From contig NZ_LGUC01000002.1 in the NCBI RefSeq assembly GCF_001307315.1, positions 1 to 64,000 on the forward strand: DNA of 64,000 nt, read 5' to 3'. The position numbers and the translations under genes were made by a program. This document shows, piece after piece, positions 1 to 15,941 of this stretch; positions within the stretch are counted from its first letter, which is position 1; every line of letters starts with the position of its first letter. This stretch comes from Halolamina pelagica (GTDB taxonomy: Archaea; Halobacteriota; Halobacteria; Halobacteriales; Haloferacaceae). The notes below the pieces were generated by a model, which saw nothing but the letters and a program-made list of their open reading frames with translations, did not search any database and was not told the origin of the DNA.

Positions 1-207
1 CGCTTCCGTCGCCGCCGGCGGACCGGACCGACGGACTCGGACCACGCGGCGCCCGTCCTCGTCGTCCTCGTCGCTGTTGCTGTCGCCCGACGACTGGGCG
101 GTGAACCACACGACGGCGATCAGCACGCCGATGAACATGAGCATCCCCATGTTGCCGCCGAACCCGCCCGCCTGTGCAACGGCCGTTCCGAACATGCTTT
201 CCAGCAC
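1..207 (-). CDS. Small membrane protein, 3' end cut by the window edge
   Basis: The reading frame stays open to the window edge. It can start at ATG 195 (MFGTAVAQ) or GTG 207. About 20 residues after the start there is one hydrophobic segment (MGMLMFIGVLIAVVWFTA), followed by an Asp/Glu/Ser-rich stretch and then a basic patch (RRVVRVRRS). This suggests a one-span membrane protein with a charged cytoplasmic tail. I do not recognise the family. The C-terminus lies outside the window, so length and function are open. Confidence 0.5.
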   Translation of the reverse strand, partial: MLESMFGTAVAQAGGFGGNMGMLMFIGVLIAVVWFTAQSSGDSNSDEDDEDGRRVVRVRRSGPPAATEA

Positions 208-328
208 ACCTCACTGTTGTCGTCGGACGAGGACCGCTTGACCGCAAGCGGCGAATCAGCGAAGGATTTTTCTACACCGTTCTCCCGGGAGCAACGCCTA
301 CGTGGTGGTGTCCGTACGGTGGTGTTAG

Positions 329-521
329 ATGGCGGGCGCAGACGGTGACGTAGGGAGCGACTCCCTCGACCACGACGACCTCCTGCAGGCCGTGGACCGG
401 ATGGAGGACCTCAACGCCAACCACACACGAGCGCCGGAACTCATCCCGGAGATCGTCAGGCCCCCTCCGCCCGGAGCTCGACCGGGACTTCGCCGCGGCG
501 GGGCGACTCTTCGGGGTGTAA
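329..521 (+). CDS. Small acidic protein, about 63 aa, one frame change
   Basis: ATG 329 opens a frame beginning MAGADGDVGSDSLDHDD. Around 461-475, where several C runs occur, the frame changes; removing one C gives a protein ending RDFAAAGRLFGV and stopping at TAA 519-521. The product would be a 63-residue acidic, helix-prone protein of unknown function. It converges on the acetyltransferase gene at 545-1132. The corrected frame relies on one inferred extra base, unlike most breaks in this window, which are missing bases. Confidence 0.4.
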
Positions 522-544
522 GTACTCGGGGGATACGCGGGGGT

Positions 545-1132
545 CTACGCCGCCGTCGGCGTCCAGAGATACAGCGCGCCCGAACACGTACACTCGCCGT
601 CACAGTCGGGGCAGTCTCGATCACCGTCGGTTCGCTGTGCGAACTTCGGCACGGTCTCGACCCGGTCGAACCCGAACTTCTCGAACAGGACTGACGAGTC
701 GACACGGTGAGGGCGGAGCCACGCGTTCCCGACCGCAGCGTCGACCTCGTACTGCTCCGGGCCAACGCGAGTCGTGTCCACATCAGCGCGGAGCCGATGC
801 CGCGCCCCTCCCACTGTTCGTCGACGACGCCGGCGTGGAACACTGCGACTTCCTCGCCTAACGGGTAATCCGCCAGCGGGGCCGAGAAGGCGTCGCGGGC
901 ACCCTCGGCAGTGAGCACGAGGACGACCCGCGAACCCGACGATCGTTTCGACGTTGGTCGCGACGAACCCGTGAGCCGCCGTCTCGTCGTCGAAGACGGC
1001 GTCGAGCGTGTTCGTGATCTCGAAGCCGACGCGCCGGCGCCAGAGGCGCTCCATCTCGCGGCGGTCGATCGATTTCGCCGGCCGTAGCTCCACCCGGGAC
1101 GGGAGGGTTGGGACGTCCTGCGCGCAGTTCAT
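545..1132 (-). CDS. GNAT-family N-acetyltransferase, two compensating frame changes
   Basis: The protein starts at ATG 1132 (MNCAQDVPTLPSRVELRPAK). It runs to GFAG near 937, continues in a second frame carrying the acetyl-CoA-binding motif QWEGRGIGSALM, then returns near 768 to the first frame (EQYEVDAAVGNAW). The motif matches the R/Q-x-x-G-x-G/A signature of GNAT motif A. The C-terminus has a Cys cluster (CPDCDGECTC) that could bind metal. Corrected length is about 195 aa, normal for GNAT. Because both outer parts share a frame, one change must be +1 (or -2) and the other -1. Substrate unknown. Confidence 0.7.
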   Translation of the reverse strand: MNCAQDVPTLPSRVELRPAKSIDRREMERLWRRRVGFEITNTLDAVFDDETAAHGFVATNVETIVGFAGRPRAHCRGCPRRLLGPAGGLPVRRGSRSVPRRRRRRTVGGARHRLRADVDTTRVGPEQYEVDAAVGNAWLRPHRVDSSVLFEKFGFDRVETVPKFAQRTDGDRDCPDCDGECTCSGALYLWTPTAA

Positions 1133-1308
1133 CGTGGCCGTACCGTGGGTGTCGACCACCCAGTAGCCTTCTCGACGGTCTGGCGGGGTACCGGGCCTCC
1201 GTGAGCGCGCAAGTCGTACTGTCCGGAGACCGACGGGAGTCGGTCTCGTCTATCGGGACACGCCGTCGCCGGGACAGGACTAACTGGGTCGCCGTCCTGT
1301 CAGCAACT

Positions 1309-1749
1309 ATGGGCGACCCGGAGCGACCAGATCTCCCGGAGACGATCGGGGAAGCCGGACCGATCTTAGAAGACGAATCGTTCTACACGCCAGTTCAGGA
1401 GCTCCCGGACGATCCGGAGCGACTCCGTGACCACATCGAGACGCTCTACGTCCATCTCGCACGGGCGTCGACGGTCATCGGGCACAACGAGCGCGTTCGG
1501 GAAGAGCGCCGTGAACAGGCCCAGGAGGTGGCGACAGCACAGAAGAAGCGAGCCGACGAACTGTCCGAGCGGGTCGCGGCGATCCGTGAGGACATCGTGG
1601 GCAAAACCCCTGATCCCCCGAATCCGATGAGTCGAACTGAGACCCGTAGCAGGGGGCCGTCCCGGTCCGGTCACCGCCCCGGCGACCGGCTGCCGGGCGA
1701 ACGTTTATTAGCTGAACTCCGTACCGGATACTCAGACCGGACAGGGTGA
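1309..1749 (+). CDS. Coiled-coil protein, first gene of the HEAT operon
   Basis: ATG 1309 starts a 146-residue protein (MGDPERPDLPETIGEAG). Residues about 45-105 are rich in Glu, Arg, Gln and Ala with heptad-like spacing (ERVREERREQAQEVATAQ), suggesting a coiled coil for oligomerisation. The C-terminus is Pro/Arg-rich. Its stop overlaps the start of the next gene (TGATG at 1747-1751), so the two are probably co-translated. I do not recognise the family. The basic tail after about residue 115 could be a shifted frame, as many genes here have one-base breaks. Confidence 0.6.
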   Translation: MGDPERPDLPETIGEAGPILEDESFYTPVQELPDDPERLRDHIETLYVHLARASTVIGHNERVREERREQAQEVATAQKKRADELSERVAAIREDIVGKTPDPPNPMSRTETRSRGPSRSGHRPGDRLPGERLLAELRTGYSDRTG

Positions 1750-2668
1750 TGCAGGTATCAACTGCGTTCGGCGACGAGCGGTCGTACGGGGAGGTGGACC
1801 CATGGCGAAGCCTGCTCCGACTCGACCCGCCAAGCGGCGACCAGGCGGCGATGCGGGCGTTCCAGACGTTCAGACTCCCGGCGCTGCTGATGGCCGGCTA
1901 CCGCCAGCAGTTCACCCCGGCCAGAACGGGACGGACGCTCTACCGAAGGGCGACGAACGCGTTGTTCGAGGCCGCGGCCGGCGATACCCCCGTCGCGGAC
2001 GCGGCCGGACGAATCGACGAGGCTGTCGGGGCCGCGCGCACGCTCCACGAGCGGTGGCACCCGGTCGCGACGACGGTCGATCGGTTCTTCGTCTGGACCA
2101 TGGTCGAAGAGGACGGCTACCTCGACCAGATGGCCGCGGTGTTCGGCGCGATGCATCCGGACGTCGACGAAGCGACGGCCAGCGACCAGCTAACCGAACT
2201 CGCCGGGTCGGTGACGCTCTCGGTGCCCCGGGACGACGTGCTCGACCGGCTCACCGCGCTCCGAGAGACGTACGGTCGGGTCCCGGCCGAGGTCGTCGCC
2301 GACGTGGCCCTCGACGCACCGCTCCCCCTGAGCCGGACCGGACGGCCGTGGCGTCGTACGACCCCGCGGAACGGCTCGACTCGGCGGCGGACTCGCTGTC
2401 CCGGGTCGACGACGTTCCGGGACAGGCGTCGCGAGAACTCGCCGAGCGATTGCGGCGTGATCTCGGCGACTCCGCGTCGCCCCAGCGGCCGGAACCGCCG
2501 CTGTTGACCGAACCGGTCGGCGCGACTGACCCGGTACGGTTCCCGACGCCGGATGTCGATCAGGTCCCCTCGCCGCGGCGGCGACCGACCAGACGATATC
2601 GCGAGCCTTCCGACAAGGAGGGTTCGGGGGCGTCGTCTACACTCGATCGGGAGCGACCGATCACTTAG
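1749..2668 (+). CDS. Unknown helical protein, one frameshift near 2331
   Basis: Starts at ATG 1749 (MQVSTAFGDERSYGEVDPW), overlapping the upstream stop. The frame is coherent to APLPLS, then breaks in a C5 run at 2331-2335. Adding one C continues as PPEPDRTAVASYDPAERLD and ends at TAG 2666-2668, giving 306 aa. The first two thirds look alpha-helical and globular; the last third is a disordered Pro/Arg/Ser-rich tail. No known motif was found. Position between a coiled-coil protein and a giant HEAT protein suggests a shared complex, but this is inference from gene order only. Confidence 0.6.
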
Positions 2669-2694
2669 CGAATCCCTTCCTCGGCGGGACCACC

Positions 2695-2913
2695 GTGGAC
2701 GGGGAACGCTACGAGTCGTACTGGGCGCGGGCGTATCTCGGACGGGAGTTGATCGAGCGCCTCTTCGAACTGTCGGCGCCGGCCACGACGATCGAGTGCC
2801 CGCTCTGTCGCGTCTCCGAAAACCGGTGTGGTGGGGAGACGTGCGGAAGCCGGGCGGTAGTTGACCCGGTCGCCGAAATCGCGGATTCGCTGATACCGGA
2901 ACTCGACCGATGA
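2695..2913 (+). CDS. Small Cys-rich protein, 72 aa
   Basis: A GTG start at 2695 gives 72 residues. The middle holds CPLC followed by C-x6-C, a possible four-Cys zinc knuckle (ECPLCRVSENRCGGETCG). The flanks are helical and acidic (RELIERLFEL, AEIADSLIPELD). It lies 26 bp after the preceding gene and 49 bp before the HEAT gene, consistent with one operon. Family not recognised. Four Cys in a haloarchaeal protein this small usually means metal binding. Confidence 0.6.
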   Translation: MDGERYESYWARAYLGRELIERLFELSAPATTIECPLCRVSENRCGGETCGSRAVVDPVAEIADSLIPELDR

Positions 2914-2962
2914 TGACTCAGCAACGTTCTGTCGACACACGACACCCGAGGTGGCGGCACAG

Positions 2963-5900
2963 ATGGTGAACGACGCCGATCCGGACGTGGAAACGGTGGT
3001 GGAGTCGCTCCGGGGCGGGGTCGGCCCCGCGAGGAGTATCGGCCAGCTCGAAGAGTGGCGTCTCACGACCGACGCAGCCACCGAGTACATCCAAGACGAC
3101 CCGACGCCGTTTGTCGAGATCGCCGACGACATCGTCGCGGCGGCCTACCGCGAAGCCCATCGAGAACCCGCTCGTGTGGAAGAGACGACAGGCAAGGAGC
3201 AGCTATCCGTCGAAATCCGGGACAACCTCACGGCGCTGCTCCAGCAGCTCAGCTACAAGGTGCCGGGGGAGCTCGTCGAACATCGTCGCCGGCTGGTCGA
3301 AATCGGGCTCCGGGCGGACAACCAGTCCCAGCGGTGGAACAACCAACACCTGTTCACGAACCTCGCCGCGCACGATGACGAGGTCGGGACTCAGCTGTTC
3401 GACTCCCTGCTCTCGACGTTCACCGACACCGAGGCAGGGGATCGCCGGCCGGTCGCCGGCTACTACGTGCGGTGTCTCGCCAGTGATCACGAGACGATCG
3501 CCGAACGGGGGCTCCCCGAGGTTCGAGAACTCCTGCGAGAGAGCCCGGCCCCGGTGCGTACGGAGGCCGTCAAGTTCGTCAGGAACCTGGTCAACGTGGG
3601 GTTCTTGAGCGACGAAACGCCCTCCGAGGCGGCGCTCGACGCGACTGCCGACGTGCGGCCGTTGCTCGACGCCGAGGAGAGCGAGGTGGCGGAGGCGGCC
3701 GTCGAAGCAGTGTTCGAGATCTCTGAGTACGCGCCCGAACGGCTTCGCGACGAGGTCGAACAGCTGGCCGGGTTCATCGGTCACGAGCAGGTCTCCTACT
3801 CAGCTGCGACCACCATCGAACGTGTCATCGACGCGGAACCGGGGCTGCCGAGGACCTGCCGGAGTCGATCGTGTCGCCGTTCCCCGACGGTGCGCCGACG
3901 GCGCAGGAGCACAGTTTACTCGTCCTCGCTGCGGTGGTCGAAACCGGGCTTGACGGGGACGGGGCGTCCGCACTCGTCAACGAGGTACTTCCGGACGTGA
4001 TCGAGTCGCTGGACGGCGGTTCCGGCGACGTGGCCTCGGAGGCGTCCGAACTGCTCGCGGCGGTGGCAGCGACGGACCCGGACGTACTCGTCCCGTCGGC
4101 GGCCGATATCGTCGCCGGGCTCTCGACCGAACGGGCACAACTCTACACGCGGCGGACCTTGGAACGCCTGTTGGCGCACGACCCGGCGACCTTCGAGACG
4201 GTCATCCCGGAGTGCCGACGGCTGCTCGAAGCCGATTGGACCAATCAGTCGACCAAAGGGTCGGTCGCCGAACTGCTCAGCAACGTTGCGGATCAGTCTC
4301 CCGACAGGCTGGTCGCTCACACGGACGTCCTGGAGACGGCGCTCGATCAGGGCGACGACGCTTCGAACTACGCCTGTACCGCGTTGGGCGAGATAAGCAG
4401 GCAACACCCCGAGGCCGTCGTGGAGCACGCACCCGCCCTCCTCGATGTCGTCGACGAGGAGAACGCGAGCGGACGGTACATGGCCGCGACGGCGCTCGAA
4501 AACGTCGCCGAGGTGGAACCGGACGCCGTTGCGGACGGCGCCGACAGCCTCCTCGAGATGTCGTTCACCGCTTCCGAAAGCATCGACTCGACGAACGCAC
4601 GCAGCGCCTGTATGACCGTGCTCGAAGAACGGCCGGACGTGGCCGAGGACCTCCGCCCGGAGATCCGGGCGGCGCTCGACAGCGACGATCTGGAGACACG
4701 GGTTCGGGCGATACAGTTCACTTCGTCCGCCGTGCTTCGCGACGCGGAGCCGTTCTACGAACTCCGCCCCCGCATCGAGGAAGCGCTGGCGGCGGACGAC
4801 GACCGCCTCACTGAGAGTGCGGCGGAGTGTATGAGCCAGTTCGCCGACAACAGGCCGGACTCCGTGGTCGACGCCGTTCCGACGCTGGGGGAGACGCTCC
4901 GGGAGGGGACCGCAGACATCCGGAAGGAGGCCGCGAGCGCACTGTGGCACGTCGCGACCGACCATCCCGAACCGGTTGCCGGCGTCGTCGACGACCTCGT
5001 CGTCGCCTTCCGGGACTCGTCGGACTACACCAAGGACTCGATCTGTCGCGTGCTGAGCGAAGTCGCCGGGGAGATTGACGCCGTGCCCGAGGGCCTGTTC
5101 GTCGAGTTGGTCGAGTTCGATCTGGCGTACAGCGGGAGCCTCTCCACGTCGAACGCCGTCGAGGCCATCGGCGAACTCTCGGCGTCGCTAGAGGAGTTGG
5201 ATCAGGCGGTGCGGACGGAGCTGCTACAGGCACTCCGGGATGGGTCGACCGATCGGCAGAAGAACGCGGCGGCAATCGCCAGGGTGCTGACGGGGCAGTC
5301 CGCGAAGAACTCGATGTTGAGCGACAACGTCGTCCACGAATCTCCGCCCGCGGGGACCGAGGAGCTGCTTCCGGCGCTCACTGACGCCTTCGACGCGGAC
5401 GACGAAGACGTTCGCAAACACGCGATGTGGGCCGTCTGCGGGCTCTCGCGGACCCGGCCTGCGACGGTCCTTCCGACGGTCGAAGAGATCGATTCGTTAC
5501 TCGATCTGGAGTCGGAGGCGAAGGGGCAGGCGATGTTCCCCGCCGCGGAGGCGCTGTACCACCTCGCCGGCCACGACGCCGAAGCGCTCGTCACCGACGA
5601 GACGGGGCTCGTCGGCCACCTGGTCTGGCTCGGAGCCACGCTAGACCGGCAGTCGTTCGACGAGTCCCCGGCGAGTGACTGTCTCGGCTACACGGTCTAC
5701 ACGACACACGGGGCGAAAGCGCTGGGCCGGGTCGCACAGGCAGCCCCCGATCGTGTCGCAGCCGAACTCGTCGACGACGAGGAGGAGTCACTCGTGGATC
5801 TGTACGAGCGCGCCCACGAAGACGTCCAGGAGCACCTCTTGGGGGTACTCAAGGAAGTGAGCCCGGGCGTCCCCAAATATTCGGCGAGGGGAACGAGGAG

Positions 5901-6233
5901 CTGGCAGCACTGTTCGACAGCGCCCCCGAGGCTCGCGAGGATGTCGCGGAGATATACTGCATCCTGGCCGAGTCCAATCCCGACCAGCTCGTCGAGAGCG
6001 TCCCCGAACTCACGACGGCACTCGAAGCGCGTCCCGGGACACAGACCGAAGCGAACCTCGTCACGGCCATCGCCACCATCGCCGACAGCGAACCGGTCGA
6101 CCTCAGGGCCTACCGGGACACCTTCGTGGACCTGTTCGCGGAGGGATCGCTCGACCTATCGGGGGAGGTCATGCTCGTGGACCTGCTGACACGGATCCCG
6201 TCGACAGTGGATATCGAGTTGCGGCCGGAGTGA
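2963..6233 (+). CDS. Giant HEAT-repeat protein, about 1090 aa, two frameshifts
   Basis: ATG 2963 (MVNDADPDVETVVESLRG) begins a protein built almost wholly of alpha-helical HEAT/ARM-type repeats. Recurrent helix pairs of about 35-40 residues are visible, such as VRKHAMWAVCGLSRTRPATV and SYACTAL-type units with Ala/Leu/Val cores. The frame breaks in a G4 run near 3851 and in a C4 run near 5871; adding one base at each restores a single 1090-residue chain ending at TGA 6231-6233. HEAT solenoids are protein-binding scaffolds. It is the last gene of the 1309-6233 operon and converges on the VWA gene with a 50-bp gap, so the VWA protein is a natural candidate partner. No enzyme domain or membrane segment seen. 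Confidence 0.75.
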
Positions 6234-6282
6234 CCACCCGGATTGCTACCGAGCGGCCGGAAACTGCCCGGGGTGGCGAAAC

Positions 6283-6932
6283 TCACCCCATCGATCCGGA
6301 GCAGTCGAGGTTGAGCGCGTAGTCGACCTCCTTGATCGACGCGCCGACGGAGCGTTTGTGCCCCTCGACTTTCACCACCTTGCCGTTCTTGCGCGATTTG
6401 ACCGCGGCGCGCTCGTCTTTCAGGACGAGTTTCAACAGCAGCCGTTTGAACGTGCTGAACACCTCGTCGATGTCCGACGCCGAGATGTACAGGCCGTAGT
6501 CGTCCCGACACAGCTCCTGCATCTGCGTTTCCGACGCCTCGCCGACGCCGGCGATGATGAAGTAGCAGTTGTTCGACGGGAAGAACTCGAGGTCCCGGAT
6601 CAGCTTCCGGACGTCGCCGACCCCGCGGGTGCTGTTGTTCTCCTTCCCGTCGGTGAACGTCAGGACGGCCATCGGGATACCGTGACGGTCGGCGTCGTAG
6701 TGGGCCTTCGCCAGCGAGCCGATGGAGTGGTACACCGAGTCGTACAGGGCCGTCTGCCCCCGGCCGACAGCTTGCGGATGTCGGACTTCAGGCTGCTCGA
6801 AGACGGCCGGAGCGTGCCGAGCGAGCACGACGAGTCGAAGCTGTTGACCACCCCGTAGTGGCGACCGTCACAGTGGATCTCGTCCACGAACCCCTTCGCC
6901 CGCCGCTTCATCGTGGTGATCTTCTTCGTCAT
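6283..6932 (-). CDS. Von Willebrand A (VWA) protein, apparently circularly permuted
   Basis: ATG 6932 opens with MTKKITTMKRRAKGFVDEI, which matches the first helix of a VWA domain rather than its first strand. Next come YGVVNSF, the MIDAS Thr motif (GGQTALYDSV), and the MIDAS Asp strand (MAVLTFTDGKENN). The missing strand and the DxSxS metal site, ALNLDCSGSMG, are the last residues before TGA 6283-6285. One frameshift in a G5 run near 6762 joins LSAGG to QTALYDS, giving 216 aa. A TATA box at 6996-7004 fits this start, so no earlier DxSxS segment is expected. VWA domains bind protein ligands through the metal. The neighbour is a HEAT scaffold. Confidence 0.75.
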
Positions 6933-6995
6933 GGCGTAGTTCCTCGTCAGAGCGGTACCACGGTGGACCTGACTGAGAACGGGAATCTGCGAAGT

Positions 6996-7004
6996 CTTTA
7001 TAAG
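6996..7004 (-). promoter_or_regulatory. TATA box for the VWA gene
   Basis: On the minus strand the sequence reads CTTATAAAG, a strong archaeal TATA element. Transcription would start about 25 nt downstream near 6972, giving a leader of about 40 nt before ATG 6932. This placement supports the VWA start used here. Confidence 0.6.
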
Positions 7005-7190
7005 TGATTTGCGGCGGCCGGAGGGGCCTGTTTCGAGGTACCGTGGGACCACCGATTCCTCCGGAACGGAGATTCAGTTGGATGTCGACCACGTATGTCG
7101 TCGTCAACGTCGATCGCGCTCCCCGAAGGTGTGCAGACGGGCGCGCCAGCCCGATCGGGATGGGGACGTGCTGGACCCAGCTGGCTCCGC

Positions 7191-7472
7191 TCACTTCGAC
7201 GTGTCTCCCCCAGTGGACTCGGAGCTCGCAACGTCCCAGACCACCTCGACGGTGTGCCTGCCGAACCCCGTGAAGACGCGACGGTCCTTCTCGAACCGGT
7301 CTTCGCTCAGTTGCGTGACCATCTCGCCCTCCTTGACGAGACAGTTCCCCGAATCCGGGAGGAAAATGACGCCGGTCTCCCCGTCACCAAAGATCACCGC
7401 TCCGTGCCCAGTTTCCTCGACCAACTCGAGCGGTTGCCCATCCAGCAGAACGGTCGTGTCGTCTGACATCAT
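7191..7472 (-). CDS. Small acidic protein, 93 aa
   Basis: Two adjacent ATG codons (7472 and 7469) start MMSDDTTVLLDGQPLELVEE. The sequence suggests a small beta-rich fold (GAVIFGDGETGVIFLPDSG) followed by a polar C-terminus (SSESTGGDTSK). No family recognised. It is read in the same direction as the VWA gene and the hyperbasic protein, with gaps of about 190 and 120 bp and its own probable promoter, so it need not share a transcript with them. Confidence 0.55.
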   Translation of the reverse strand: MMSDDTTVLLDGQPLELVEETGHGAVIFGDGETGVIFLPDSGNCLVKEGEMVTQLSEDRFEKDRRVFTGFGRHTVEVVWDVASSESTGGDTSK

Positions 7473-7589
7473 ACGTGTGACTTCGTAACTCGAACGCTCA
7501 GGAGTATTCGGTAATTCACTGTCCGTGGTCGCTTTTCGGAGCAGCCATCTGATCCGGCATCGCGTACCGAAATCGTACTCCCAACTACG

Positions 7590-7751
7590 TTATCGGCGAC
7601 GGATCCGCCGGATCAGGACTTTCCGCTTGACCTTGACGGGCGACTTGATCACTTTGAGTCGGACGATACGACCGTTGCGCCGGTAGACCTTGACCCGGAC
7701 CGTGTGGCCTTTGTAGCGAACCTTCCGGACACGGACGCTCTTGCGTGCCAT
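7590..7751 (-). CDS. Tiny hyperbasic protein, 53 aa
   Basis: ATG 7751 to TAA 7590-7592 encodes MARKSVRVRKVRYKGHTVRV and a continuation of the same character. About 26 of 53 residues are Arg or Lys, there is no Asp or Glu, and Val/Ile alternate with basic residues, suggesting beta strands. A TATA-like ATAAAG lies near 7811 about 60 nt upstream. Such composition is the reverse of the acidic haloarchaeal norm and points to nucleic-acid or ribosome binding. It is not a ribosomal protein I can name. It is too short for usual length cut-offs and could be missed. Confidence 0.6.
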   Translation of the reverse strand: MARKSVRVRKVRYKGHTVRVKVYRRNGRIVRLKVIKSPVKVKRKVLIRRIRRR

Positions 7752-7997
7752 ATCTACAGCGATACGCCGGGGGTACTCGGCAAGTCCCCTGACCGGTGTT
7801 CTGGATTAGCTTTATGAGTGATGAACCGAGGGTGGTGAATCTCACAAATCGATAGGACCCGTCAGGAGTCGGTGTGATCGACACCATGCCTGCTCGAATC
7901 TGCCTCAGAACGTCGGGACTAGAACGGTGGCTCACGCTGATCTTCCCCCTGTTCACAGTGGATAGTACAAACGGAGCAACGCATCGTTCGGCCAGGT

Positions 7998-8441
7998 ATG
8001 GATCGAGCAGAACGGTTCGTGACCGTTTGCCGGCTGATGAACAAGGTGCTGGAACAACGGGGTAACACGCCGGGTGAGATCAGGATAACCGAGGACGAGA
8101 TAGATCAACTGGTGCTGGCACTCGAGTATTTTCGGGACGCGATGGACCCCAGCTCAGGGGACATTCTGACTCGAACGGAGTTCCGCTGTCCGGAGTGTGG
8201 CACCAAGAATGAGTTCCGAGCGCAGGACGGCCAGGTTTCCCTGGTAGAGAACCACCCGGAGGTCGGTGTCGAGGTGGTGAAAGTCCACGGCATCGCCCAG
8301 TGTAGTGAGTGCAAGCGCCAACTGAAGTTGACGCAGTTCGAACCGGTGCAGTTGGCGGGCTTCGACGAGGCCGCTTGGAACGCTCTGTACGAACAGGAGT
8401 ACAAAGCACGCGCGGTCGTGACGAAACTGCAGTCGGAGTGA
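7998..8441 (+). CDS. Zinc-ribbon protein, 147 aa
   Basis: ATG 7998 starts MDRAERFVTVCRLMNKVLEQ. A helical N-terminal half (residues 1-55) is followed by a zinc ribbon: CPECG at about residue 64 and CSECK at about residue 100, giving two CxxC knuckles separated by about 33 residues. The C-terminus is helical. A TATA-like ATAGTACAAA at about 7959 would give a nearly leaderless mRNA. It may act as a nucleic-acid or protein adaptor; family unknown. The frame is intact. Confidence 0.65.
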   Translation: MDRAERFVTVCRLMNKVLEQRGNTPGEIRITEDEIDQLVLALEYFRDAMDPSSGDILTRTEFRCPECGTKNEFRAQDGQVSLVENHPEVGVEVVKVHGIAQCSECKRQLKLTQFEPVQLAGFDEAAWNALYEQEYKARAVVTKLQSE

Positions 8442-8748
8442 CCGAGTCGCTCAAGTCCCGCACGTCGACGCTGCGTCCGCGACAGTCTACGAGGGGCCTC
8501 GACGCTCCCCGGCGCGACGTCGGCTTGGTCATGTGGTCGATCGGCTTCCCCATTAGATATATGAGGGCTGCTACCGATCCTGCGAGTATCTTGTCTCGCC
8601 AAAACGATATAAAAAGATTACCCCAATCGATGCGTCACCATCAGGGCAAGCCACCCCTGGCGCGTAGGGGTCGGATGTCGAGCGGTGCAACGTTTCCCGA
8701 CAGACGCGAACCACCCGAGAACCGAACCGTGCTCTCCCGACACATCCC
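8442..8748. other. Intergenic region with distal promoter and hairpin
   Basis: No gene is seen here. A TATA-like GATATAAAAAG at about 8605-8615 lies 130 nt before ATG 8749, so the next gene may have an unusually long leader of about 105 nt. Within that leader the sequence CACCCCTGGCGCGTAGGGGT at about 8650-8670 can form a short 6-bp stem. No function can be assigned. Confidence 0.35.
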
Positions 8749-9719
8749 ATGAGCCAGCCACAGACAGGTCCGATGTCGCTCGCAGCGTACTGGTCTCGAA
8801 TCAGCCAAGTGTTCGCCGTCCAGCACTCAACCTACCGGAGGCCGGTGCTCGAAACGGTCCTGCAGGCCGATTCGGACGTCTATACGTTTACCGGGCTGAA
8901 GGAGGCAGTCAACGAGTATCTCGAAGCGAACGAACTCGACGACGCTGACAACGAGTGGTCGAACGCGACGCTGACGGACATCCTGCCGTATCTCGAGGAT
9001 ATCGGCGTGATTCAGCGGATCCCAAAAGTCGAGAAGGACTCCGACTACGCGACGTATCGGATCGGCGCGGTCTGTGACTGGCTTCAGCAACAGGATCTCG
9101 ATGCGGGCTCACCCCAGAGTCTCCCCAGCGGTAAAGCCGCCTGCATGGTCGACTACGTCGGCGGCGTGCTCAGTAGACTCGACGCCGGCGAACACACCGC
9201 GGAGCGCGTGGAAGGGTATCCCGAAGAGAAGATCTCGGTGGTTCCCACCGAGGCGTCGATGTCCACTGTCGCCCAGCAGGCAGGCATGTTTCGGGATCCG
9301 AACGTCGAGATCGGGATCGGCAACCTGAGTTCGCTCCGCGGCACAAGCTACGAGGACCTGCTAGCGTCGTTGGAGCTCGGCACCGATCTACCGGCCGCCG
9401 ACGGGGGTGGCAGACTGCCGACGGCGTTCACGATTTCGCCGTCGCAGGCGTCATCACCGGTCTCGTCGGCTGCGACGACGAGCGGCGACTCTCACGACAG
9501 ATACGGTCCTACCTGGGGCTGATCCACGCTGGCGCGTGGAAGCTCAACGCTGCCGCCGACGACGGGTCAGAGCACGGACGGGTCGTGACAGGCGGTGACA
9601 CGGTGCGGGAGCTTCTCGGCAAGGACGGACAGAACGCCTCACTGAAACGAACCGGGTTCGACGTGCAGGTCGCCGACGGGCAGGTACTGTTCGGTTCGTA
9701 CACGCGACGACGCCCCTGA
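8749..9719 (+). CDS. Unknown protein with winged-helix-like N-terminus, one frameshift
   Basis: ATG 8749 (MSQPQTGPMSLAAYWSRISQ). Residues about 28-105 look like a winged helix (TFTGLKEAVNEYLEANE, LTDILPYLEDIGVIQRIPKV then a strand pair DYATYRIG). The frame breaks in a G5 run near 9405; adding one G gives DGGWQTADGVHDFAVAG and an end at TGA 9717-9719, 323 aa in all. The corrected C-terminal part (GRVVTGGDTVRELLGKDG) looks globular. It is followed after 30 bp by the acidic-linker gene, so they are likely one operon. Family not recognised; DNA binding is inference from predicted shape only. Confidence 0.6.
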
Positions 9720-9749
9720 CCACACCGCGAGACAGACACACGACCAACA

Positions 9750-10771
9750 ATGAACGACAACAGGCACACCGACGGTAGCGGGACAGAACCAATCAAAAAC
9801 GCGCGGAGTAGCAAAGAATCAGTCGAAGACGGATGGAAGAGCGAACTCGTCGACGGCGGCGTCGACGAAGCGCGAGCAGAGGACATCGTCTCGATGCTCC
9901 AGTCCTCGACGGAACTCGTTCTCGGAAGTCCGAGCGAGGACGAGGTTGACGAGGCGCTTCGGACCGCGATCGAAGAGACGGATCTCGAGCAGTACGGTGC
10001 CGAGCAACCCCGGCGACTGACCAGCGCGCTCCTCAGAGTCCTCGACGAGTGGCAGGACGGAACTCGGGCCCCACCAGTCGCTGCGGCACCCAGAACGGCG
10101 CCGACTGCCTGGGACGATCGAACCAACGGCGAACCCCAGCGCACAGGCGGGACAGCCCATGCAACCGGTGCCGACGAGACGACTCACGAGGACGGCGCGG
10201 CCGAAACGCCGGACGACCCCGACGCTGAAGAGTCAGTTACGACGGTTCAGGGCGATCCAATCTCGCCGGACCCCGACCTGGAGCCACAGGCAGATCCGGG
10301 TCAAGAAGGTATCGCTGGGGAGCAGGGCCGATCAACGACGAGCAAGGCGTCGTCGAAGACGCAGTGGACGCTACGCGGGACGCCGGGGCACAGGCTTCGG
10401 CGGCTGATGACTCCAGTGCAGCCACGGACACTCCGTCAACGGAGACGGCGCAACCCGAAGGTCAGGCTGACCAGTCTGGCGGGACGGGAGCTGACGACTC
10501 GACGGCGGCCGACCGCCACCAGCAGATAGACCTCGCGAAAACGATCGCACACATCCAGTTCGATCGGAACGAGGACGTCATCAACTCCTGGACGGAGCAG
10601 CCAGCCGAGTTGGTCGAAGACGAGATAACTTCCTTCGCGGTGAGTGCCGTCAATGTGTATCGGGATATGGTGAAAAACACCCTGTTCCCCGAGATGAGCG
10701 ATTCCGAGCAGGAACTCCTCTACGAGAAGCTCGTCGAAGACCGCATCCGGGAGCAGTGGAACAGCGAGTAG
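9750..10771 (+). CDS. Protein with long acidic linker, one frameshift
   Basis: ATG 9750 (MNDNRHTDGSGTEPIKNARS). A helical N-terminal domain (about residues 25-105) and a helical C-terminal domain (about 255-340, KTIAHIQFDRNEDVINSW) are joined by some 150 residues of Asp/Glu/Ala/Pro/Thr-rich linker. The break lies in a G4 run near 10308; one added G restores 340 aa ending at TAG 10769-10771. The acidic linker is common in haloarchaeal multidomain proteins. It ends 10 bp from the convergent orphan gene. Function unknown. Confidence 0.6.
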
Positions 10772-10780
10772 GCGAAGCAG

Positions 10781-12354
10781 CTACAGCTCGCCATACTCGC
10801 CCGACTGGACCCACTCGAGCGCTTCCCCGAGTTCGTTTTCCTCGAACGCCATCTGTCGAAGCGCATCCTGTCGACTCTGGTTCCAGGCTTGCCACGACAG
10901 ATCGCCGTTCTGCTCGTAATCGAAGAACGTCCCGATGTCGCCGGGCGTCGTCGCCCCCGTGCGGGCCAGTTCGAACGGGTTCTCTCCGCGGACGTGGTAC
11001 CGGGCGTAATGGAACGGCTGCTCGTCGACGATCCGGCCGTTCTCCTCGTCTGTGAGTTCCAGTCGCGCGGGCGTGTTCGTCTTCCCGATCATCTCGATGT
11101 CCCACTCTTCCCCGTTTCTCGATAGCGTGCTGTTCGTGAACAACTCCTGGAGGAAGAGCCGGTAGCGGATGTGTTCGATGGAGAACGACGTGTCCGGGCG
11201 GTAGCTGTACCACGTTCGAACGAGTTTGGTCTCGGATAGCCGGATCGATTCGTGAGTCGTGTAGAAGCCACGGTTCCACGGGTTCTCGACCGCGTCCCGT
11301 CGCTGCCGCGCAGTCAGTTCGCTGGCGTCGTCGTACGTGCCACCGCCCGCCCTCGTCTCCCAGTAGCTCCCATCGGTCCGGATATCGTCGACGTCCATCC
11401 CGGTCGCGATATCGTGGAGTAGGTGACAGACCCACTTGTCCGGATGCATCGTCGCCTCCCGGGGAACGTTCAGCGCGTCGAGGGCACGGGGCCGGCCGAC
11501 TTCGTCTTCGAGCCAGTCGATGGTCCGGAGGATCTGGGTGTTCCGGCCGACCGCACTGTAGTCGTCAGGGGCGATATACCACTCGGAGAGCGCACGGACC
11601 GTCTCGTTGAGGACATCTTTATCAGTCTCTTTCAGCCTCTCCCGTTCAGCCGGAGAGACAGAGACGACCGAACAGAGTTCGTCGAACGGCGAGCCCGCCT
11701 CGATCAACTCCGACAGCACCCGTCGTTCTTCCAGAAACGCCGGGAACTCGTGGTACATCGTCGGAAGAGCCCGAGAGAACACTCGGTCCCCCTTCAGGAC
11801 TGCCGGGATCTGTGAGAACGGGAACATGTAGCCGAACGCAGCTACTTCCGGATGGTTGAGCGTCATGAAGTGACCGTTCGGCGAGTCGCTCGACCCGTAC
11901 TCGTGGAACTTCAGTACGTACCGCATCAGGATCGACCGGAGGAGCTGATACCCTGTCGAGGACTCCTGGACGAACTCGTTGTCGTCGATGATGCTGGTGT
12001 CCGGATTGATGAACCGACGTTGGACCGCACTCGCGGAGGGGTATCGGATCGACCGCTGGGCGTCGCCGATCTGCGTCGTGAGGAGTTTGCGGAGCCGCTC
12101 GTCTTTCTCTATGGTCTCTTTGTCGATGTAGTTCCCCGTGTGTGACCCGAACAGGTGGAAGTCCGGCCGCCCACTCGGCTCGAACACGTACCGTGGGTTG
12201 AACCCGCCTTCGGTTTTCGTCGTCGACCCCTCGACGACCACCTGCAGCACTGGCTCGTACCCTTCGACCCCGCTGGGGTGGGCTCTATCACCGGTCGGGT
12301 CCCCTCGTGGCCCATCCGCTTGTTCTCGATAATGTCGACGACATCGGCACCCAT
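10781..12354 (-). CDS. Unrecognised 524 aa protein, one N-terminal frameshift
   Basis: Start ATG 12354 (MGADVVDIIENKRMGHEGTR). The frame breaks in a G4 run near 12270 and continues as VEGYEPVLQVVVEGST to TAG 10781-10783. The protein is soluble and globular with no signal peptide or membrane span. Residues such as HPDKWVCHLLHDIATGMDVD and HEFPAFLEERRVLSELIEAG suggest a mostly helical enzyme or structural protein, but I match it to no family. A TATA-like TTTATG near 12387 fits a nearly leaderless start. It is divergent from the phosphoesterase pair, sharing a 167-bp control region. Confidence 0.6.
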
Positions 12355-12521
12355 GGATACACAAACGGTCTCACACGAATCCGCATAAACGTGACCCCGG
12401 GGCGCGTCGGGGTCGTATACGAGGAGCTGCGTTACCGATGGCTCTAGGAAGCTGGCGGCCAAACCGCTCGCCACTGAATGGCCATGACGAACGTCACGCC
12501 TGGGGAGCGAGCGACGGGCGG

Positions 12522-13333
12522 ATGAGGCTTCTCGTCCTGGGGGACCCACACCTCACGGCGTCGACCGTCCCAGAAGTCACCGTGGCGTCGACGGAGATCG
12601 ACGTCGTGATCGTCGTCGGCGATCTGCTCGATCAGCGATGTCACTCCCCGAGATCGGGGTGGAACTGCTGGAAGACCTCGTCCGGTCGGTCGCCCCCGTC
12701 GGCTACGTTCCCGGCAACCACGACTACCCGTATCGCGATCTGCTCACCGGCGTCGACGGCGTAACTGATCTCACGGCTACCGACGTACGGGATGGGGTTC
12801 GGTTCGTCGGCCTGGGGTGTGACCGCTTCGATGCTGGTACGGAGATCAGGTATCTTGACAGTCCGTTCCAGGGTGATGCCGAGCAGGTCGACGAGTGGCT
12901 GGACGCCTACCGAGCACAGGCGTTCCAGTCGTCTCCGGTGACGGGGCCCGATCCGTCGGCAGTACCAGCCGACGGAATCGAGCGGTACCGGCATCGATTG
13001 CGACACCTCCGGGATGGGTTTGCGAACACCGCCGAAGCCGGGGTGCTCGTCTCACACGTGCCGCCGTTCGACACGCAACTAGACGTGATTCGGGCGGAGC
13101 GCTCACCACTACAAGGTCACCACTGGGGCTCGCTCGCAGTTCGCCACGCACTCCGGGAGTACTCGCCTGCTCTCTGTCTCTGCGGACATATCCACGGGGC
13201 GGCAGGCGTCGTCGACGTTGACGGGACGCGGTGTGTCAACCCTGGCTACCGGTGTGCGAAAACTGTCACAATCGATGGCGACAGCGTGGAAACCGAGGAT
13301 GCCCCCATCGAGTACGGAGGGCAAAGCGTCTGA
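12522..13333 (+). CDS. Calcineurin-like metallophosphoesterase 1, one frameshift
   Basis: ATG 12522 gives MRLLVLGDPHLTAS with the DxH metal motif, then VVIVVGDLLDQ (GD motif). After a break in a C4 run near 12647 the chain continues with YVPGNHDYPY (GNHD), SHVPPFDT and CLCGHIHGAAG (GHxH). All five metallophosphoesterase blocks are present in order, 270 aa corrected. These enzymes hydrolyse phosphomono- or diesters with two metal ions. It is a paralogue of the next gene (shared HVPPF, GH-H and NPGYR/NLGYR), so the pair arose by duplication. Substrate unknown. Confidence 0.8.
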
Positions 13334-13412
13334 CGGCCCTCCCACGACCCACAGTGAGACAGCAACCCACACAACCGCTACTAACTTCTATCTGGGTTCA
13401 AATCTGTAACCG

Positions 13413-14311
13413 ATGCGACTTCTCGTCTACACCGATCTCCACCTCAAACCGGCGGGGAGTGGCTACGACATCGACGCGATGCAGGTCCCCGATGGCATCG
13501 ACGCCGTACTGGTCGTCGGTGACCTGACTCATCGTGCAAATCCGGCCGATATCGAACTCGCCCGGGAGTTCGTCGAGCGGTTCGGCACCGACACGCCGGT
13601 GATCTACGTACCCGGAAATCACGATCACGCGCCGATGCCATCGAACGTGGTCGAACCGTTCAGGGCGTCGTGGTCGGGCCACCGATTCGTCCGTGATTTC
13701 GGCGACCTCACGATCGTCGGCCAGGGGTGTGAACAGCGATCGCTTTCGCCGGCGATCGATCAGTGTGCGTTCCCGGCGCTGGACCCCCGCGACGCCCGAC
13801 AGGGTAACCGCCGATATCTCGCGGACCAGGTCGCGAACGACCTCGAAACGGCCTGTCTCGACGTTGTCCGCGGGACGGAAACGCCGAGGGAAGCAGCCCG
13901 TTCACTCGGCATCGACGACGCCGAACTCCCGGAGTTCACGCGCGGCGTCGAGCGCGTCGAAACCGAGTACGAACAGCTTGCGGAACTGCTCGAACCGCAG
14001 ACGAACGTCCTCCTCGCCACCCACGTCCCGCCGTTCAACACGGCATTCGATCGCCACCACGCCGTCGGGACACGAGAGGCGGATCGAGAGTTCCTCCACT
14101 TCGGATCGATCGCGACCAAACTCGCCATCCGGGAACACGACGTGTTTGCCGCACTCAGCGGCCATTCACACACGCACGGCTACGAACCAGCGGACGGGTC
14201 GGACGGCCACACGTACTGTCTCAACCTCGGCTATCGGGGTATCGGTACGGTGACGCTCGACGCCGAGGCCCGTTCGTTCGGGTTCACGCAAGCCTCCACG
14301 GGGATGTCTAA
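13413..14311 (+). CDS. Calcineurin-like metallophosphoesterase 2, stop hidden by a frameshift
   Basis: ATG 13413 (MRLLVYTDLHLKPAGSG). Motifs in order: DLH, VVGDLTHR, YVPGNHDHAP, THVPPFNTAFD, ALSGHSHTHG. It is about 30 residues longer than its paralogue, with an extra helical insert after residue 120. As printed the frame runs past the next start into nonsense; adding one G to the G4 run at 14300-14303 yields STGDV and TAA 14309-14311, 3 nt before the next ATG. Corrected length 299 aa. Tight spacing to both neighbours indicates an operon. Confidence 0.8.
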
Positions 14312-14313
14312 TC

Positions 14314-15321
14314 ATGCCGGACGGGCCGCTCGAAGACGCCCCGCTCCTGGTCTCCATGACGGTCACCGAACTCTTCCTCGCGGCGACCGGGAGAAACGAG
14401 CGACTGGCCGACTTCGCGACTGTCGTCGCGGAGGCGGCGGATGGCATCGAACTGTTCGTCGAGCCCACGGAGGCCTACATGAGTTCGACCCAGGCCGCCG
14501 TCGGGTACGCTTCGTCGTTCGGGCTGCCGATCCGAACGATCCACACGCCCCCGCTGGGGGTTCACGAGCAGGGGCTCGACGGGAACTGGAACGTCGAGTG
14601 GAACACGCACCTCAAGGAGGTCCTCCTCAACTACGAACAGGACGGCACGCGCCCGGCAGCGGACCAATCCTACCCGGGGCAGCCGGAGATCAATCGCGTT
14701 CCGAAGATGGAGCCAGCAGTCGCAACCACACACCCGCCCCGCTTTCCAACGGACGCCGAGACGCGACTCGCTGAGGCACGGCGCGATCTGGTGGAGACGT
14801 TCCGGGCAACCATCGAACACATCAGGAGCGACCGGTTCCTTGAGGCGCCGCTGGATCTCCCGACGATCGCCGTCGAAAACGTCTGTCCCCGTCCGGGGTT
14901 CGACTACTTGCTGACCAGTCCAGCAGACATCGATCAGCTTCGGGCGGTCGCGGCGAGCCAAGGGGGAGCCGATCTCCTCGCGTTTACCGGTGACGTTGGC
15001 CACACAGCGACGCCGACGGCGATGTTGGAGGCGATGGAGACGCCAGCCAACATCCATCTCCATGGCGTTAGCGACGCCAGTCCTGACGCCATCGTCGATC
15101 GGCTCCCGGGGGACGTCTCGGCCTCCGCACTGACAACCGAACCGCGTGCCGGGACGGTCCAACATCTGCCGCCGAACGCGTTCCCGGACCGGACTGAATC
15201 AGCGCTCAACTGGCTCGCGAACACCGAGCACCGATGCCCGCTGACGATCGAACTGCAGCGAGCTTGCAAAACGCCCGCTGTCGCCCGTGAACTGTTCGAG
15301 TGGTTCGAAGCTGTCGAGTGA
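14314..15321 (+). CDS. Xylose-isomerase-like TIM-barrel protein
   Basis: ATG 14314 (MPDGPLEDAPLLVSMTVTEL), 335 aa, intact frame. Barrel strands end in putative metal ligands typical of the AP-endonuclease-2/sugar isomerase superfamily: IRTIHTPP, IAVENVCP (Glu), LAFTGDVGHT (Asp, His) and NIHLHGVSD (His). It begins 3 nt after the second phosphoesterase and is surely co-transcribed. The superfamily includes endonuclease IV, sugar-phosphate isomerases and hydroxypyruvate isomerase. Pairing with two phosphoesterases suggests a phosphorylated sugar or nucleic-acid substrate, but this is inference. Confidence 0.7.
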   Translation: MPDGPLEDAPLLVSMTVTELFLAATGRNERLADFATVVAEAADGIELFVEPTEAYMSSTQAAVGYASSFGLPIRTIHTPPLGVHEQGLDGNWNVEWNTHLKEVLLNYEQDGTRPAADQSYPGQPEINRVPKMEPAVATTHPPRFPTDAETRLAEARRDLVETFRATIEHIRSDRFLEAPLDLPTIAVENVCPRPGFDYLLTSPADIDQLRAVAASQGGADLLAFTGDVGHTATPTAMLEAMETPANIHLHGVSDASPDAIVDRLPGDVSASALTTEPRAGTVQHLPPNAFPDRTESALNWLANTEHRCPLTIELQRACKTPAVARELFEWFEAVE

Positions 15322-15393
15322 TGTGGGCCGTCGCTCGCTCGTCGCGGAGACAACCAGGGTCTATCTGCTGCCCAGCAGACAACAATCGCCTAG

Positions 15394-15941
15394 TTACAGC
15401 TCGAAGTCCTTTTCGCCGGCTTCGATCCGCACCTCGAACCAGTTCTCCGTCGGCGGAAGCGGGCACTCGTACCGGTCCGAGTAGGCACAGGTCGGGTTGT
15501 ACGCCTCGTTGAAATCGAGGATCCACGCTCCCGCGTCGGTCCGGTGGTGGTCGGGTTCGAGATCGATGTACCGGCCCGCACCGTAGGTTTCCTCGCCGCT
15601 GGTCGCGTCCCGGAACGGCACCCAGAGCCGATCCTCCTCGGGGTCGCCCTTGTAGGCCGTCACCGTGATCGACTCACCGCCGATCTCGACGGTGAACTCC
15701 CCCACGCGAGGTACTCCTGTTCGCCGTCCGTGCTGGTTCCGACGACGACGACCTCGGGCTCGTCGTACACGTCGAGGGCCACCTCGAACCGGTAGTCGGG
15801 GTCGACCGGGTAGTAGTTCAGCCCGTCGAACGCCGCCCGCTGGTCCTCGGGGATCGGCGACCGCGGGTCCTCAGCGAAATACCGGTCTTTCTGGCGTCGC
15901 TGTGCCTCGACGGCGTCCGTCCAGTCCTCAGCTGTTTCCAT
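15394..15941 (-). CDS. DUF1684 family protein, one frameshift
   Basis: ATG 15941 (METAEDWTDAVEAQRRQKDR) runs to EYLAWG, breaks in a G5 run near 15703, and continues EFTVEIGGESITV to TAA 15394-15396. The corrected 182 aa carries the features of DUF1684: the N-terminal helix, GLNYYPVDPDYRFEV, the YGAGRYIDL block, and the C-terminal DFNEAYNPTCAYSDRYECP segment. The family is conserved in bacteria and haloarchaea; its biochemical role is unsettled. Intergenic sequence separates it from the divergent redox enzyme. Confidence 0.8.

Follow-up and report, generated by a model that had tools for sequence, protein, structure and literature searches.

A C-terminal MIDAS strand conserved in haloarchaeal VWA proteins points to a natural circular permutation

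VWA domains are found throughout the domains of life, and an N-terminal DxSxS motif serves to recognise them. In the canonical domain, the start of strand beta1 and the end of the last helix lie on the same face, an arrangement that lets I domains be inserted into loops. The canonical MIDAS-VWAs of haloarchaea and phages (for example L002/L003 and the viral L044-L123; PHROG 7371; PF00092/PF13519) follow the pattern FVLDSSGSM...GGQTALYDAI...LTDGKENAS. Circular permutation is known from the P-loop GTPases of the YRG/YlqF family and cpRAS, in which a Rossmann-like alpha/beta domain is permuted and its functional loop motifs are reordered; cpRAS proteins also carry a separate VWA domain, which is not described as permuted (PMC2430557). 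In the open-access full-text literature and in family libraries, we found no description of a circularly permuted VWA domain, in agreement with the preliminary description of this locus, which could point to no named family arranged in this way; publications joining both terms concerned the cpRAS GTPases with their separate VWA, a halovirus with permuted genome ends, or unrelated domains.

The gene, its reading frame and its surroundings

The window, a stretch of 64,000 nucleotides of Halolamina pelagica DNA, carries a minus-strand coding sequence running from an ATG at 6932-6930 to a stop at 6285-6283, whose intact form encodes 216 aa (Table 1). The frame of the window copy is broken by a 1-base deletion in a C/G homopolymer. 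A second copy of the gene, near the far end of the same contig (C2:329265-329912, locus L001), reads uninterrupted in one frame between ATG and TGA, and its translation is exactly the 216-aa protein inferred in the preliminary description, which had called for correction of a G5 run near 6762. The window forms the start of this 338,773-bp contig, and its positions 1-15819 are repeated at the opposite end (L006:2977-18774) with 99.75% identity, 0 mismatches and differences by indels only, many of them within homopolymers. Because the contig end repeats the window start with nothing but indels, the contig is a circular replicon of ~323 kb with an unresolved 15.8-kb overlap and indel errors; its DNA is similar to haloarchaeal megaplasmids. 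As the copy at the other end is intact, the frameshift in the window is an assembly or sequencing error at one replicon end and not biology, and the indel-only differences between the end copies make frameshifts elsewhere in the window suspect as well.

Table 1. Positions of the VWA gene and its elements in the window (residues numbered on the intact protein)
Feature	Position	Strand	Remarks
Permuted VWA CDS, 216 aa	6283..6932	-	Frameshifted here by a base missing from homopolymer 6757-6761; intact in L001:1498-2148(-)
C-terminal beta1 and DxSxS MIDAS loop (VDYALNLDCSGSMG), D210, S212, S214	6286..6327	-	Conserved at 5/5 homologous loci; strand 214-220 in homologue model
Linker of ~35 residues, last VWA helix to relocated beta1	6328..6432	-	Poorly conserved; two short helices in homologue model
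MIDAS Asp D95, LTFTDGKEN	6649..6651	-	Invariant in the three intact proteins; at least 90% conserved with canonical VWAs
MIDAS Thr T61, GGQTALYDS	6751..6753	-	Invariant in the three intact proteins; at least 90% conserved with canonical VWAs
N-terminus equivalent to VWA helix alpha1 (MTKKITTMKRRAKGFVDEIHCD), beta1/DxSxS absent before it	6867..6932	-	Sequence; helix 13-31 in homologue model
Putative archaeal TATA-box-like element (CTTATAAAG, minus-strand reading)	6996..7004	-	~65 nt before ATG; consensus match only

The protein begins with helix alpha1, in the N-terminal segment MTKKITTMKRRAKGFVDEI, continues with the central motifs GGQTALYDS and LTFTDGKENN, and ends with strand beta1 and the MIDAS DxSxS motif in the C-terminal segment VDYALNLDCSGSMG, directly followed by the stop (YALNLDCSGSMG), exactly as the preliminary description had read it. 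That description had further claimed that joining the C- to the N-terminus would rebuild a canonical domain with no gap; the join is indeed seamless in the window protein, with the qualification that a linker of ~35 residues has been added between the last VWA helix and beta1 and that relatives carry 9-10 extra residues at the N-terminus. Upstream of the gene, the TATA-like element CTTATAAAG, ~65 nt from the ATG, suggests a short leader of ~40 nt and, if functional, would keep any DxSxS segment further upstream out of the gene's transcript. Extending the frame beyond the ATG, up to a GTG, adds no DxSxS, and neither an upstream DxSxS segment nor a longer C-terminal domain, the two observations that the preliminary description had named as contrary to its reading, occurs in any intact copy.

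Neighbouring genes are unlike between the loci and form no shared operon, the homologues being judged from ORF listings, which fits the expectation for a mobile, solitary gene. No MoxR AAA+ ATPase or TerY-type kinase/phosphatase was recognised among the neighbours in the window or in the homologue ORF listings, and the VWA protein has no PADLOC match that would assign it to a defence system. Convergent with the VWA gene lies a long HEAT/ARM-repeat protein (2951-6230, plus strand) split over several frames, probably by sequencing errors, as the overlapping copy has an indel near 5841. Further along the window, two adjoining calcineurin-like phosphoesterase genes (12638-14270, plus strand), each matching the PADLOC candidate family PDC-S10, lie beside the gene of a divergent 527-aa protein that fits no known family (10781-12364, minus strand).

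Homologues and sequence constraint

A single-sequence first scan of genome contigs returned no relatives. A six-frame search of 392 genomes of the taxonomic order recovered, along with ordinary VWA proteins, three full-length relatives with 35-41% identity, in Halorussus ruber YC25, Halorubrum distributum JCM 10118 and Haloarculaceae archaeon H-GB1-1. A fifth locus, on a Haloarcula marina plasmid, is a remnant with a 5' truncation that shares the C-terminal end. Homologues with the permuted arrangement were what the preliminary description had looked to for support. The H-GB1-1 copy (L043:7968-8645) contains one in-frame TGA, and the H. marina copy (L032:7944-8384) lacks its 5' half and is fused to unrelated sequence; in both, the C-terminal D-x-S-x-S-M is intact.

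All five loci end in ...Y-x-L-N-[IL]-D-x-S-x-S-M, at most 4 residues before the stop, an ending found in no other protein across all compared loci. Instead of the canonical order of beta1-DxSxS, then Thr, then Asp, the DxSxS motif is C-terminal in all five, which makes this a permuted VWA variant. The five MIDAS residues (D210, S212, S214, T61 and D95) are invariant in the three intact proteins and kept in H-GB1-1. Since the rearranged order has been kept in several distant salt-loving archaea, it represents a real natural circular permutation, apparently undescribed so far.

The known intact copies number only three. Additional genomes sampled from the taxonomic family, from the families of two homologues, from the class and from the phylum added no permuted relatives, and the permuted group is therefore rare and patchy. 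Protein, alignment and DNA-pattern searches of phage records and viral contigs found no permuted relatives either, and none of the pattern matches in viral contigs was C-terminal.

The H. ruber and H. distributum genes have diverged to saturation at synonymous sites (pS 0.8-0.9), and the proteins are identical at 13/15 positions of the tail, 100/163 of the core and 21/38 of the linker. The corresponding counts between H. distributum and the window protein are 8/12, 71/162 and 5/36. Constraint is thus strongest on the relocated MIDAS strand and weakest on the linker.

Profile and structure tests of the relocated strand

To compare native and rotated orders, we aligned a profile of four permuted proteins with a profile of 87 canonical haloarchaeal and viral VWAs using hhalign. 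In native order, the alignment scored 85.9 and spanned template columns 39-202, leaving beta1 and the first MIDAS loop uncovered. With the last 16 columns put in front, the score rose to 109.3, the match spanned columns 19-202 with beta1 and the MIDAS recovered, and the profile-profile E went from 6e-13 to 9e-17; relocating at least 16 C-terminal columns stretched the match from template columns 17-19 through 202 (score 109). The rotated score was matched by none of 100 column-shuffled tails (maximum 97.8) and by none of 98 relocations of other segments of the same protein (maximum 90.1). Being kept in every homologue, best conserved, and the sole segment that restores a full VWA alignment, the tail is a feature beyond chance. 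The hhalign test supersedes a rotation scan by HMM, in which a narrow profile of canonical haloarchaeal VWAs had gained little (from 26.6 to 28.8 bits).

Homology to the VWA superfamily (Pfam PF00092/PF13519) is also seen in family searches, in which two homologues (L041/L042) match Pfam VWA (PF00092) above the cut-off, with E values of 8e-8 and 1.5e-9. In native order, neither Pfam nor NCBIfam recognises the window protein; rotated, it matches VWA_2 with E=0.001, below the curated cut-off.

The extra N-terminal stretch of the relatives, LFGSSGSSK (L041:7971-8010), LFGSSGPSK (L042:510-545) or LFTSSSDPSK (L043:7968-8003), lies roughly at the position of the canonical FVLDSSGSM and is possibly a decayed original beta1 that lacks its Asp. 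The positional fit to a degenerate beta1-DSSGSM is rough, and the stretch adds nothing to the profile score (85.8 with it and 85.7 without; its removal lifts the rotated score to 112.6), so we keep this identification as a suggestion only.

AlphaFold2 was run on the H. ruber protein (L041), with all canonical alignment rows starting only after DxSxSM so that they gave no beta1 information. The resulting model (pLDDT 80.8, pTM 0.80) shows a Rossmann-like fold around a central parallel sheet, comprising alpha1 (13-31), beta2 (35-41), beta4 (97-102), beta5 (132-138), beta6 (157-160) and alpha6 (165-180), followed by two helices within the linker and, at the end, a strand at 214-220 (LPMEYMLNID stretch) with pLDDT ~85; the N-terminal 12 residues are unstructured, the first ten at ~51. 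From the model, the final strand would sit between beta2 and beta4. In a Foldseek search of the PDB, the top 22 matches were all VWA/I domains, including Rpn10, CD11b, TFIIH subunits, ITIH1, vWF A1, NorD, CLCA1 and RGLG1, with a best E of 2e-4 in a comparison that depends on sequence order and misses beta1. A first model from 5 sequences only, an alignment too shallow, had reached pTM 0.65 with no significant PDB match. Rotation test and structure model together back the permuted fold that the preliminary description had proposed.

Readings of the C-terminal strand and comparison with known domains

We consider it probable that the gene encodes a stand-alone, naturally circularly permuted MIDAS-VWA (integrin I-like) domain. 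The chain would run from alpha1 through beta2-beta3-alpha2-alpha3-beta4-alpha4-beta5-alpha5-beta6-alpha6 into the flexible linker of ~35 residues. Because the termini of a canonical VWA share one face, this linker could bring the chain back and let the last residues form beta1 mid-sheet, in its canonical slot, where the chain would stop in the metal loop. There, D210, S212 and S214 would meet the GGxTAL Thr (T61) and the TDG Asp (D95) to build one MIDAS from one chain. As in other MIDAS-VWA domains, such a single-chain MIDAS would be expected to bind Mg2+/Mn2+ and, via the metal, an acidic ligand on a partner. Its most likely origin would be a canonical haloarchaeal/phage-type VWA in which the domain, or beta1, was duplicated and the original beta1 then lost.

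A free C-terminal strand on a ~35-residue linker would also permit exchange between subunits, the second option of the preliminary description, in which beta1 fills in the sheet and MIDAS of an adjacent subunit and an interface metal site is made or broken by association. We regard this as unlikely: the monomer model of the homologue folds the C-terminal strand confidently, the linker has the length to reach within its own chain, and no feature specifically demands exchange. The monomer is accordingly favoured, and a VWA family with a detachable C-terminal MIDAS arm, swapped between subunits such that oligomer assembly switches metal and ligand binding on, appears doubtful. It is very improbable that the segment instead acts in trans, as a donor or decoy strand completing another VWA fold or a partner while its host VWA stays incomplete. 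The LFGSSGxSK-like stretch of the three relatives could lie close to the former position of beta1 in such an arrangement, but the window protein has no N-terminal beta1 substitute, and its own sheet therefore needs the C-terminal strand; moreover, the stretch leaves the profile match unchanged, and no conserved neighbour gene was seen as a possible acceptor.

The rarity and scatter of the family, the in-frame TGA in H-GB1-1, the 5' truncation in H. marina and the frameshifted window copy might suggest a decaying, functionless fragment of a tandem VWA fusion. This is scarcely credible in view of the strong amino-acid constraint, strongest in the tail, between divergent intact genes with saturated synonymous sites, and the break in the window copy stems from assembly or sequencing.

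If the protein is a circularly permuted domain, as we think probable, its conservation means that the two opposite ends of a chain can together build a MIDAS, and that permuted members escape profile searches, as the window protein did in native order. Such a domain would offer a natural test system for the coupling of beta1 insertion to MIDAS assembly and a template for engineered I-domain switches. It may also preserve a stage of permutation by duplication, as relatives retain a short N-terminal extension at the old beta1 site.

A conserved, naturally circularly permuted MIDAS-VWA appears to be new among VWAs. The permuted cpRAS/YRG/YlqF GTPases belong to another superfamily and have no sequence relationship to it, serving as a precedent only. 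The integrin I domain, vWF A1 and Rpn10 match its predicted fold in the PDB and differ in the sequence order of beta1, with no close sequence relationship. Closest are the canonical haloarchaeal and phage MIDAS-VWAs, which share the alpha1-beta6 core order, the GGxTALxD and TDGkEN motifs and the MIDAS residues and give a profile match of E ~1e-16 after rotation; whereas they start with beta1-DxSGSM, the permuted protein carries that element as its last 14-18 residues, after the extra linker.
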